This document shows positions 17-50,908 of a stretch of DNA of 64,000 nt, in pieces (position 1 is the stretch's first letter; each line of letters opens with the position of its first letter). Below the pieces are notes generated by a model. The model did no database searches. It was not told where the DNA came from and was given only the letters and a program-made list of their open reading frames with translations. This stretch comes from Natrinema pellirubrum DSM 15624 (GTDB lineage Archaea > Halobacteriota > Halobacteria > Halobacteriales > Natrialbaceae). The stretch is taken from positions 3,534,001-3,598,000 of the forward strand of contig NC_019962.1 in the NCBI RefSeq assembly GCF_000230735.2, written 5' to 3'. The position numbers were made by a program, and so were the translations under genes.

Positions 17-1222
17 ATGGCACAGCAGAGCGACTCCCTCGAGCCGTTCCGGGCGATCGAACTGCCCGACGGCAGCGATCCGATCTCGAAGGGGATCGTC
101 CGGCGGATCCGCTCGAACGAGGGCACGATGACGGTCGAAATCGCGATCGATGGGCTCGGCGAAGACCTCGCCGAGCGGATCGTCGAACAGGTCCGGGGGG
201 CGGCGCTTGCGCTGCCGGACGCGGACCACGTCCGCATCGAACCGGTCCGGGACGCGGACAAAGAGGTCGAACTGCCCACGGTCGATCACGTCCTGGCCGT
301 CGCGAGCGCGAAAGGCGGGGTCGGCAAGACGACGGTCGCGGTCGCACTGGCGCGGACCCTCGCCGCCCGCGGGGTCGACGTCGGGCTGTTCGACGCGGAC
401 ATCTACGGCCCGAACGTCCCCCACCTGCTCGAGGACGTCGACGGGCCGGTCCTGACGAACGAACACGGCCAGCCGGTGCCGCTGGAGGCCGAAAACGGAC
501 TCGAGATGCTCAGCCCCGGCGTGGCCGGCGGCGACGCGCCGACGGCGCGGCGGGGGGCGATCGCCTACGGTGCGGTCGAGAACCTGCTCGGACAGGGCGA
601 CTGGTCGGATCGCGACGTCATGATCATCGACATGCCCGCCGGCACGGACGACGTGGTCGGAGCGGCGCTGGAACACGTCCCCGTCGACGGGGCCGTCTTC
701 GTCACGACCCCCTTCGACGCGAGCGTCGACGACACGAAACGGACCGTCGACTTGTTCGCCGAGAACGGGGTCGCTCCGGTCGCCGGGGTCGTCAACATGA
801 ACAGCTTCGACTGCGAGTGCTGTGGGGAGCGCAACCGGCTGTTCGAGGACCCCGTCGACATCGACGTCCCCGTCGCCCACGACCTCCCGTTCGATCGCAC
901 CCTTCAGCGCGCTCCCGGCGGGACCGACTCGCACGAGACGATCGACGCGCTGGCCGAGACCGTCGAATCGTTCATCGACGAGGTCCTCGAGGACGTCCCC
1001 AAGGACGCGTTCGATCTGCGGGGGCTGCCGCGGGCCAGCCAGACGCGCCAGCTGTGTGATGAGCTGGCGGCCGCCGACGCCGGGGACACCGTCCGGGTCG
1101 TCGTCGAGGACCCCGAATGGGTCCGGGACGCCCTCCGGAGCGACGCCGGCGAACTACTCGCGGACGTCGACCGGGAGGGGATCGCCACCACCGGTGCGTT
1201 GCTGGCAGTGACGCGGCGCTGA
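17..1222 (+). CDS. Mrp/NBP35-family P-loop ATPase with C-terminal extension
   Basis: 401 aa. Likely an Fe-S cluster carrier or assembly ATPase of the Mrp/ApbC family in the cytoplasm. Residues about 15-78 resemble the DUF59/MIP18 domain. A deviant Walker A (KGGVGKTT, residues 99-106) and the DAD-IYGPN and IDMPAGTDD motifs follow. A C-E-C-C-G cluster lies where Mrp proteins carry CxxC. The last 70 or so residues (starting near FDLRGLPR) look like a TusA/DUF2249-type carrier fold, which is not standard for Mrp; that assignment is tentative. It sits about 420 bp upstream of a molybdenum/Fe-S oxidoreductase operon on the same strand, so a role in loading those clusters is inferred. Starts at the first ATG in the window; upstream context is not visible. 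Confidence 0.85.
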   Translation: MAQQSDSLEPFRAIELPDGSDPISKGIVRRIRSNEGTMTVEIAIDGLGEDLAERIVEQVRGAALALPDADHVRIEPVRDADKEVELPTVDHVLAVASAKGGVGKTTVAVALARTLAARGVDVGLFDADIYGPNVPHLLEDVDGPVLTNEHGQPVPLEAENGLEMLSPGVAGGDAPTARRGAIAYGAVENLLGQGDWSDRDVMIIDMPAGTDDVVGAALEHVPVDGAVFVTTPFDASVDDTKRTVDLFAENGVAPVAGVVNMNSFDCECCGERNRLFEDPVDIDVPVAHDLPFDRTLQRAPGGTDSHETIDALAETVESFIDEVLEDVPKDAFDLRGLPRASQTRQLCDELAAADAGDTVRVVVEDPEWVRDALRSDAGELLADVDREGIATTGALLAVTRR

Positions 1223-1641
1223 TCGGCGTATGACCCCGGGCCGGACGTAGCGGCACGGTGACGACGGTTTTCGCGACTGCTGGATCCGTTTTATATAGTA
1301 TGTTCCGCCTGCGCGTGCGAAACTGAAGACTCGGCACAACGACGAGGGACGCTACTTACCGACCCGACTTGAATACCGCAACAGTTGCAGGTAGCCGGAA
1401 TCGGCGATACCCGATAATTCCGGGACGTGATGCCGTTTGAACCGTGATTTATAAACCTGTACCAGTGAAGGAACAGGGCAAGTACATAAATGGTCGGGCG
1501 AACACCTCCAGACCGTTCCTGTCAGATAAGAACGGTGGTGAGCCACTTACAGTACCGATCACCATCCGTCACACATGGTGCTCGAACAGTCACCGCGGCA
1601 CCGGCTCTCGAGCGTGATCGACGCCGGGAGGTGGTGTCGCC
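1223..1641 (+). promoter_or_regulatory. Long upstream region of the molybdenum oxidoreductase operon
   Basis: 419 bp with no credible gene. TATA-like tracts are visible at about 1288-1298 (ttttatatag), 1444-1452 (atttataaa) and 1482-1489 (acataaat). The last two would give a leader of over 100 nt, consistent with the Shine-Dalgarno sequence seen before the oxidoreductase start. The length suggests regulated expression, but I see no clear operator palindrome. Confidence 0.4.
1627..1633 (+). promoter_or_regulatory. Strong Shine-Dalgarno of the oxidoreductase alpha subunit
   Basis: GGAGGTG lies 8 nt before ATG 1642. It fixes the start and shows the transcript is leadered, unlike many haloarchaeal genes. 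Confidence 0.7.
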
Positions 1642-15827: not shown

Positions 15828-15900
15828 GCCCGGGTGGTGTAGTGGCCCATCATACGACCCTGTCACGGTCGTGACGCGGGTTCAAATCCCGCCTCGGGCG
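15828..15900 (+). tRNA. tRNA-Asp(GTC), copy 1
   Basis: 73 nt, no intron. Acceptor GCCCGGG pairs with CTCGGGC (one G-T), anticodon loop CTGTCAC within stem CGACC/GGTCG, T arm GCGGG-TTCAAAT-CCCGC, discriminator G73. The anticodon GTC reads GAC/GAT. CCA is not encoded. Confidence 0.97.
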
Positions 15901-16276
15901 CTTTTCCGATCTCAATTCCCACAAGCTGTCAGTCCGCTGGCCGCGGGGAGTCCGAAATCGACAAAGAGGAACTCGGAATTTGAATTAGGGAGCGGCGTCG
16001 CTGCGATCGTGGTTCAAAACCCTTCCCGGACATTTTTCCCGAACTAATCGGAAAGCAGCGCGTGGAACTGCAAAAACGTGCCCGGCGAAGTGCGGAAACG
16101 ACGAGTCGAGTTCGGGAGTGTAACTCAGTCTCGACTGTTTATCTGACACATCGTCCGATCTATCGAGAACACGACTCGGCAGAAACGAGTACTAACGAGA
16201 AAACGTGTCATTCAGCATTGGGAACGGTCCGGGAACAAAACCCTTAATACTCCGACGGCGAAACGAAGAGTTGCGA

Positions 16277-16349
16277 GCCCGGGTGGTGTAGTGGCCCATC
16301 ATACGACCCTGTCACGGTCGTGACGCGGGTTCAAATCCCGCCTCGGGCG
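16277..16349 (+). tRNA. tRNA-Asp(GTC), copy 2
   Basis: Identical over all 73 nt to the copy at 15828, exactly 449 bp away. The promoter element aaacccttaatac (about 16238-16250) and the downstream 30 bp are also conserved, so the repeat is a tandem duplication of a whole transcription unit. Confidence 0.97.
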
Positions 16350-16605
16350 CTTTTCCGATCTCAATTCCCACGAGTTGTCAGCTTGCTGGCCGTGAGGAGT
16401 CCGAAATCGGCAGAGCGGACCTCGGAATTTGAAGCAGAGAGTTCCTTCGCCGTGACCGTGGTTTAAATCCCGTCTCGGGCGTTTTCTTGGTTTCAATTCT
16501 CGAGCGAGAAGCGCCGCGATGGGCGAAGACTGCTTTCGACTAGTCGAAGTAGGCCTGTATTTATATCATTCCCCACTCATTTCAGAAACGAACGGTCGAA
16601 AACGA

Positions 16606-17016
16606 ATGAATACCAAACAGACCGGCGACGAAACGGAAGCACGGATCATTGCAGCACTCATCGCGGAGGGGTACACCGTTTCCGTTCCGTTCGGCGACAA
16701 CGACAAGTACGATCTCGTCCTAGATACCGGCTGCCAATTGCTCCGCATCCAGTGCAAGACCGGGTGGATCGAGGACGACGTCGTACGGTTCAAAACGGCC
16801 AGCAAAACGACGACAGACGGATCCGTGACGATGGACAACTACGACGGCGAAGTGGATGCGTTCGCCGTTCGCTGCAAAGAAACCGAGACGTTGTACTGGG
16901 TTCCGATCGACGATATCGGAAAGAAAAGTACGTACTTACGATTGACGGAGCCGAAGATCGATCATCCGAGCGTCAAGTTCGCCGAGACGTATCGCTTCGA
17001 GAATCGACTCCCGTGA
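16606..17016 (+). CDS. PD-(D/E)XK nuclease-like protein (group I intron endonuclease type)
   Basis: 136 aa from ATG 16606 (a longer frame from 16519 lacks support). The pattern GDETEARIIAALIAEGYTV, then DKYDLVLD and LLRIQCKTG, fits a PD-(D/E)XK fold with catalytic D (KYDLVLD) and Q-x-K (IQCK). It resembles the small family of group I intron-linked endonucleases (PF11645) also found free-standing in archaea. No intron is visible nearby. Less GC-biased than its neighbours and located right after the tRNA-Asp repeat, so it may be a remnant of an integrated element. A function in restriction or in housekeeping cannot be told apart from sequence. Confidence 0.6.
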   Translation: MNTKQTGDETEARIIAALIAEGYTVSVPFGDNDKYDLVLDTGCQLLRIQCKTGWIEDDVVRFKTASKTTTDGSVTMDNYDGEVDAFAVRCKETETLYWVPIDDIGKKSTYLRLTEPKIDHPSVKFAETYRFENRLP

Positions 17017-50695: not shown

Positions 50696-50768
50696 GGGAT
50701 CGTGGGTTAGCTTGGTATACTTCGGGCCTTGGGTGCCCGTGACCCCGGTTCAAATCCGGGCGATCCCA
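50696..50768 (+). tRNA. tRNA-Pro(TGG)
   Basis: 73 nt, no intron. Acceptor GGGATCG/CGATCCC, anticodon loop CTTGGGT in stem CGGGC/GCCCG, T arm CCCGG-TTCAAAT-CCGGG, discriminator A73. A TATA-like gctttatg lies about 28 bp upstream (50662-50671). Confidence 0.95.
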
Positions 50769-50769
50769 T

Positions 50770-50804
50770 ATTGCTGCTGCGAGCAAATCGCGAGCAGCAG
50801 CAAT
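50770..50804 (+). repeat. Hairpin directly after tRNA-Pro
   Basis: ATTGCTGCTGC (50770-50780) pairs with GCAGCAGCAAT (50794-50804): an 11-bp perfect stem with a 13-nt loop, starting 2 nt after the tRNA 3' end. No T-tract. Possibly a 3'-processing or termination structure. Confidence 0.5.
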
Positions 50805-50812
50805 TGGAACGA

Positions 50813-50881
50813 GCCCGGATTTGAACGAGAGAACGGCGAGCGATAGCGAGCCGTTCGCGTGGTTCAAATCCGGGCGATCCC
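50813..50881 (+). repeat. Inverted and direct copies of the tRNA-Pro 3' end
   Basis: GCCCGGATTTGAAC (50813-50826) is the reverse complement of GTTCAAATCCGGGC (50862-50875), giving a 14-bp stem around an inner AACGGC/GCCGTT stem. The right arm extends to 50881 as GGTTCAAATCCGGGCGATCCC, which equals the tRNA-Pro 3' end (50747-50767) over 21 nt. Direct-repeat pair of the kind left by tRNA-site integration, but with an inverted copy too. Confidence 0.75.
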
Positions 50882-50908
50882 TTCGTTATCGTGACCGATC
50901 GGTAAGCG

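Follow-up and report, generated by a model that had tools for sequence, protein, structure and literature searches.

Recurrent hairpin units between copies of the tRNA 3' end in haloarchaea: possible non-autonomous DNA cassettes

Through analysis of a 64,000-nucleotide stretch of Natrinema DNA (the window), a total of three tRNA genes, two for Asp and one for Pro, have been identified with ARAGORN and Rfam. Behind each of them stands an inverted copy of the T-arm followed by a direct copy of the tRNA 3' end, which raises the question whether these loci preserve the scars of ordinary integration or belong to a unit of another kind. The order of the copies had been noticed in the first-pass annotation and is indeed present at both Asp loci and again behind tRNA-Pro; the second Asp unit, as claimed there, retains 19 of the 21 bases of the tRNA 3' end. 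The annotation overlooked that the units contain a pair of conserved hairpins, that the inverted copy is specific to its tRNA, and that the arrangement extends over most isotypes and over a whole class.

Units behind tRNA-Asp and tRNA-Pro

The units consist of four consecutive elements behind the tRNA: (i) a hairpin, HP1; (ii) an inverted copy of the tRNA's own T-arm, I; (iii) a second hairpin, HP2; (iv) a direct copy of the tRNA 3' end. The 3' end itself, from G53 to the discriminator (21 nt), is designated D, and its direct downstream copy D'. The units measure mostly about 75-130 bp and contain hairpins only, without a gene cassette; the D-D' spacing is mostly 70-130 bp, and neither an integrase gene nor cargo lies between the repeats. 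As the tRNA 3' end stands on both sides of the inserted HP1-I-HP2, the tRNA stays intact.

Table 1. Features of the tRNA-Asp and tRNA-Pro loci (window coordinates)
Feature	Position	Strand	Description
tRNA-Asp(GTC) copy 1	15828..15901	+	D (G53 to discriminator) = 15880-15900; ARAGORN, Rfam
HP1 region, Asp unit 1	15901..15972	+	degenerate hairpin; fold
I (inverted T-arm), Asp unit 1	15973..15985	+	TCGGAATTTGAAT
HP2, Asp unit 1	15986..16011	+	TAGGGAGCGGCGTCGCTGCGATCGTG; 26 bp
D' (direct tRNA 3'-end copy), Asp unit 1	16012..16032	+	15/21
tRNA-Asp(GTC) copy 2	16277..16350	+	D = 16329-16349; ARAGORN, Rfam
HP1 region, Asp unit 2	16350..16421	+	fold
I (inverted T-arm), Asp unit 2	16422..16434	+	TCGGAATTTGAAG
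HP2, Asp unit 2	16435..16460	+	26 bp
D', Asp unit 2	16461..16481	+	19/21
PD-(D/E)XK endonuclease-like protein	16606..17016	+	136 aa; Pfam PF11645, E 6.9e-52
tRNA-Pro(TGG)	50696..50768	+	D = 50748-50768; ARAGORN, Rfam
HP1, Pro unit	50769..50813	+	long hairpin GCTGCTGC-GA-GC...GC-GA-GCAGCAGC
I, Pro unit	50814..50826	+	CCCGGATTTGAAC; complement of tRNA-Pro T-loop and T-stem
HP2, Pro unit	50827..50861	+	35 bp; tip GA-GC-GATA-GC-GA
D', Pro unit	50862..50882	+	20/21

The Asp loci form a tandem duplicate pair with an offset of 449, in which identity amounts to 74/74 for the tRNA, 61/72 for HP1, 12/13 for I, 17/26 for HP2 and 15/21 for D'; the two Asp units are therefore not mutually independent. The tandem tRNA-Asp pair also occurs in most related genomes, and the upstream sequence aaaacccttaata is repeated as well (window 15828-16350). 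The endonuclease-like protein is encoded directly behind the tandem, and reading frames resembling it, judged by eye, follow tRNA-Asp in several Natrinema loci. In the Pro unit, two pairs of HP1 are compensated in the ortholog of the related genome G005, and HP2 is 97% identical to the HP2 located after tRNA-Arg(TCT) in the same genome.

Occurrence, gain and reshuffling of units

About 20 of the 45 tRNA genes of this Natrinema genome carry a unit, some of them twice in tandem, and the isotypes concerned include Ser, Leu, Glu, Val, Trp, Lys, Arg, Gly, Met, His, Phe, Ile, Asp and Pro. A direct match to the tRNA's own 3' end (score at least 16, at most 200 bp downstream) is found for 18/45 genes, against 0.15% with the 3' end of another tRNA and 0/45 upstream; an inverted match (score at least 11) is found for 10/45, against 3.0% with a mismatched tRNA and 1/45 upstream. 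It is confirmed that the D-I-D' order at these tRNA genes is not a product of chance.

The class-wide search with the pattern D-N(42-72)-I-N(24-54)-D' revealed matches in 180/194 Halobacteria genomes, belonging to 63/65 genera, while the reversed pattern, used as a control, gave 0 matches in every one of the 194. In a sample of the phylum the order is present in 22/24 Halobacteria and in 0/124 other genomes. A confinement to the loci of the window without conservation in relatives, which the annotation had put forward as speaking against its observation, is contradicted by these figures. The units lie nearly always directly after a tRNA or in an array beginning at one, and are single or arranged in tandem, with up to five D copies behind one tRNA. 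D' is perfect (21/21) in 155/234 loci, and the copy nearest to the tRNA is the best kept (proximal 19.5/21, distal 18.4/21, p 0.014).

Beyond the phylum sample, matches that share these hairpin motifs come from two Woesearchaeota genomes and from the "Euryarchaeota archaeon" Ods02/Ods04. The Woesearchaeota (DPANN) loci L143 and L132, one of them from a Rifle-type metagenome, carry units with GA-tandem hairpins after tRNA-Ser and tRNA-Leu, so that the system is not confined to haloarchaea. Several other matches to the genome-wide pattern have been rejected: the bacterial ones (L118, L145, L163, L185) are chance or tRNA arrays, and that in Methanomassiliicoccales (L141) has no hairpin. Among the orphans without a nearby tRNA, L239 and L261 are displaced arrays, L241 is chance and the others are loci cut at an edge. 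In L239 (G028), copies of the tRNA-Gly 3' end recur about every 140 bp in an array, and the 3 kb examined contains no tRNA. The I-HP2-D' pattern with CGTGG gave 0 matches in viral contigs.

Comparison of the loci in three related genomes, G000 (this genome), G004 and G005, indicates how the units come and go. A Thr-CGT unit is present only in G005 and a Thr-TGT unit only in G004, and the alignments give precise empty and filled sites. An extra unit is found at Val-CAC, proximal to the tRNA, and also at Glu-TTC, where two units stand in swapped order in G000 and G004. At Ser-GGA of G000 the HP1 of one unit is fused to the HP2 of the next, while at Arg-TCT and Val-TAC HP1 has been kept and HP2 changed between related genomes. 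At the tRNA-Thr CGT of G005 (L271), the acceptor pair is changed on both sides, GCCGGTG/CACCGGC compared with GCCGGAG/CTCCGGC in relatives, and the new base is also present in D'. The copies had been termed relics; the perfect D' of most units, together with gain, loss and reshuffling in related species, identifies the units instead as recurrent modules.

In 18 pairs of units behind different tRNAs, the HP2 sequences reach an identity of at least 90%. In these pairs the similarity of HP1 is at background (26%, background 28%), and I fits its own tRNA at 3.1/4 positions and the partner tRNA at 2.0/4. A shared HP2 accompanied by an unrelated HP1 and a locally fitting I marks HP2 as a separate exchange cassette, which, at the level of sequence comparison, is shown to be bounded by two inverted T-loops.

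Ordinary scars of virus or plasmid integration, with D' as the attR of deleted elements and the hairpins as random remains, are a very improbable account of these loci. Archaeal integrases usually take the tRNA 3' end as attB (PMC8371274), a Haloquadratum prophage is bounded by a 22-nt tRNA-Ala duplication (PMC3119063), and one locus, L261, is such an integration beside a unit. However, the sequence preceding D in L261 is devoid of I-HP2. With few exceptions the units agree in their HP1-I-HP2 layout and short spacing, hairpins of the same families recur at most isotypes, and whole units of about 100 bp are gained precisely. As the sole explanation, scars are refuted by the HP2 cassettes shared between tRNAs and by the tRNA-specific I described below. 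The suggestion that the pattern is no common integration scar is correct.

Hairpin fold and tRNA-specificity of the inverted copy

The hairpins share the tip GA-NN-GN(N)A-NN-GA, which among 232 units is found on the tRNA-sense strand in 153 instances and on the antisense strand in one, with about one expected from shuffles. GNA and GNNA loops closed by G-C pairs are known as exceptionally stable DNA mini-hairpins (PMC4686876). Under symmetric scoring, the mismatches in the unit stems are 362 G.A, 30 A.C and 8 G.T, whereas the acceptor and T-stems of the tRNAs at the same loci contain 91 G.T and 0 A.C. Between orthologs, 98 non-Watson-Crick pairs, mostly G.A, are the same and 6 are changed; nine pairs are compensated. 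The lack of a G.U excess, the tandem G.A pairs and the GNA/GNNA tips fit a DNA fold better than an RNA fold.

These data bear on a possible RNA function, in which trailer hairpins transcribed with the tRNA would act in termination or processing, or I would sequester the decoy D'. The fixed place directly after the tRNA on the sense strand, the T-rich start, the ability of I to pair with D' or with the tRNA itself, and the compensated pairs in orthologous hairpins agree with such a role. A sense RNA under selection would, however, give the opposite G.U picture, and the RNA fold is ruled out by this test; the hairpin transcript for which small-RNA sequencing had been proposed is likewise not supported. 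In addition, some orthologous tRNA genes have no unit, I does not follow when D' mutates, and Rfam returned no family in the window besides the three tRNAs. A function in RNA is therefore improbable. The dominance of A.C over G.T in the stems is not accounted for by the reading of the units as hairpin cassettes.

The fit of I to its tRNA has been examined over 99 distinct tRNA 3' ends. At the variable position R57, complementarity between I and its own D' is seen in 96% of cases, compared with 55% after shuffling (z 8.9), and at T-stem positions 62-65 in 58%, compared with 44% (z 8.0); the acceptor part of I gives a weak k-mer signal (z 4.9). The search patterns placed no constraint on these positions but fixed the constant T-loop bases, and most loci outside the three-genome comparison were picked in this way, with one genome per species; unbiased evidence therefore comes only from R57, the T-stem, the acceptor, the hairpins and the three-genome comparison. 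Within this frame, covariation with R57 and the T-stem is shown to match I to the resident tRNA, as read from the sequences of the units. Where the two direct copies are not identical, I agrees with the D of the tRNA in 19 cases and with D' in 8, which favours copying at birth over later selection on an I:D' stem.

Because it best explains the inverted copy, replication template switching is the main rival to a cassette system. At a stalled fork the nascent strand would fold back at a hairpin and copy the tRNA 3' end in inverted (I) and direct (D') form; no dedicated recombinase would be needed, and hairpins would spread as good fold-back points. I repeats the sequence of its own tRNA, fading out in the acceptor part, and, in following D, behaves as if copied at birth, and repeated fold-back would yield the alternation of D, I and D' with a hairpin between each pair. 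We nevertheless regard this process as rather unlikely, since HP1 and HP2 are recurrent families in which the conserved G.A pairs would fall to palindrome correction, identical HP2 cassettes stand at different tRNAs, and the system is restricted to one class, whereas tRNA genes and replication forks are universal.

Candidate enzymes and known systems

We tentatively propose, as quite possible, that the units are non-autonomous hairpin-forming DNA cassettes which recombine at the tRNA T-loop (GTTCRAAT) by means of a tyrosine recombinase supplied in trans. The sense strand would act as a folded single strand, or as a cruciform, in which I-HP2-D' forms the recombination site and I marks the T-loop through base pairing. 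A tyrosine recombinase of the type already using tRNA 3' ends may insert or exchange units in trans, and recombination of D with D and of I with I would lead to losses and to HP1/HP2 hybrids. The outcome would resemble an integron array with the tRNA T-loop as entry site and with empty cassettes. More doubtful, though still conceivable, is the wider claim of an integron-like recombination system throughout the haloarchaeal class, with folded single-stranded DNA cassettes that use the inverted T-arm copy of their host tRNA as an address, enter at the universal T-loop and are inserted at, or exchanged between, tRNA genes.

Tyrosine recombinases (PF00589) are present in 8/8 genomes tested; since they are found everywhere, their presence is uninformative. 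The integron integrase model TIGR02249 gave no match above the cut-off in the same number of genomes (0/8), seven of which have units, and a larger, autonomous version carrying a gene between D and D' has not been found. The fit of I to the resident tRNA after HP2 transfer cannot be produced by classical recombination alone and counts against the cassette reading. In locus L261 of G003, a tyrosine recombinase gene (291-1466, minus strand) adjoins a tRNA-Ala D copy, which is followed by a displaced HP1-I-HP2-D'; here a larger integrated element has pushed the unit away from its tRNA. Tyrosine recombinase genes also lie near the unit-less tRNA genes Glu-CTC and Ala-GGC in G000 and G004, sites perhaps occupied by real integrated elements.

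An HUH (Y1) transposase has been considered as well, with the units as palindromes derived from REP or IS200/IS605 elements and I as a guide pairing with a cleavage site beside the hairpin. HP2 is flanked immediately by GAAT or GAAC on its 5' side and by TCAA on its 3' side, letters which agree with GR (GAAT) and CR (TCAA) of IS608 (PMC5934647), and a sense-strand hairpin with guide-target pairing would account for the tRNA-specific I. Short letter matches within a palindrome are weak evidence, however. Y1_Tnp (PF01797) is absent from six unit-rich genomes (G004, G063, G098, G104, G146 and G164, about 9-13 units each by the strict pattern), whereas the same pattern finds no unit in G049 with its 10 Y1 matches, and insertion of IS200/IS605 elements leaves no 21-nt duplication. 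The involvement of such an enzyme is hardly probable.

Small palindromic mobile repeats are common. We know of none, however, that re-creates a host-gene-specific inverted arm at many different target genes, and no description of such tRNA hairpin units has been found in the open-licence literature. If the cassette reading is true, DNA cassettes would be addressed to individual tRNA genes by base pairing, and part of what follows the tRNA genes of a whole archaeal class would be accounted for. Haloarchaeal genetics would gain a natural means of insertion at numerous neutral sites. How an inverted copy comes to match every new target becomes a testable question.

With integron arrays the units share growth from a fixed entry site, a foldable, strand-specific site flanked by an inverse core and a core, and a variable hairpin. 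The attC cores of integrons read RYYYAAC...GTTRRRY (PMC3053210), those of the units RATTYGAAC...GTTCRAAT; the unit cores GATTYGAA(C/T) and GTTCRAATC are similar to attC but one base longer (extra C). In contrast to integrons, the units are accompanied by no IntI above the cut-off and contain no coding cassette, their entry site is the tRNA T-loop, the core runs into the tRNA-specific T-stem, and the 21-nt tRNA 3' end is repeated.

REP/BIME elements with their TnpA-REP (RAYT) are likewise short, non-autonomous palindromes with a strand-specific hairpin. They differ in being dispersed, whereas the units are tied to tRNA 3' ends, have a tRNA-tailored inverted arm and abound in several genomes devoid of Y1 transposase. 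The ends of IS200/IS605 elements likewise combine a subterminal hairpin with neighbouring guide and cleavage letters, GAAT/TCAA (PMC5934647); in the units, I lies 5' of the hairpin and complements the T-loop and T-stem of D', where a cleavage site is only putative. REP/RAYT and IS200/IS605 cause no target duplication, unlike the units with their 21-nt D/D' repeat and empty and filled sites. The same applies to the palindrome-associated elements (PATE) known in Haloquadratum (PMC3119063), which cause no target duplication, while the units have 21 nt and no Y1 requirement.

Insertions by tyrosine integrases (SSV, SNJ2 and prophage type) also restore the tRNA by a 3'-end copy and leave a direct repeat downstream; the units, however, are gene-less, about 100 bp long, have a tRNA-specific inverted copy and conserved hairpins, and occur at most isotypes. 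Integration of the casposon or Cas1 type would fit the long target duplication. The best reading is that the units work like integron cassettes or REP/IS200 palindromes without being members of either group.
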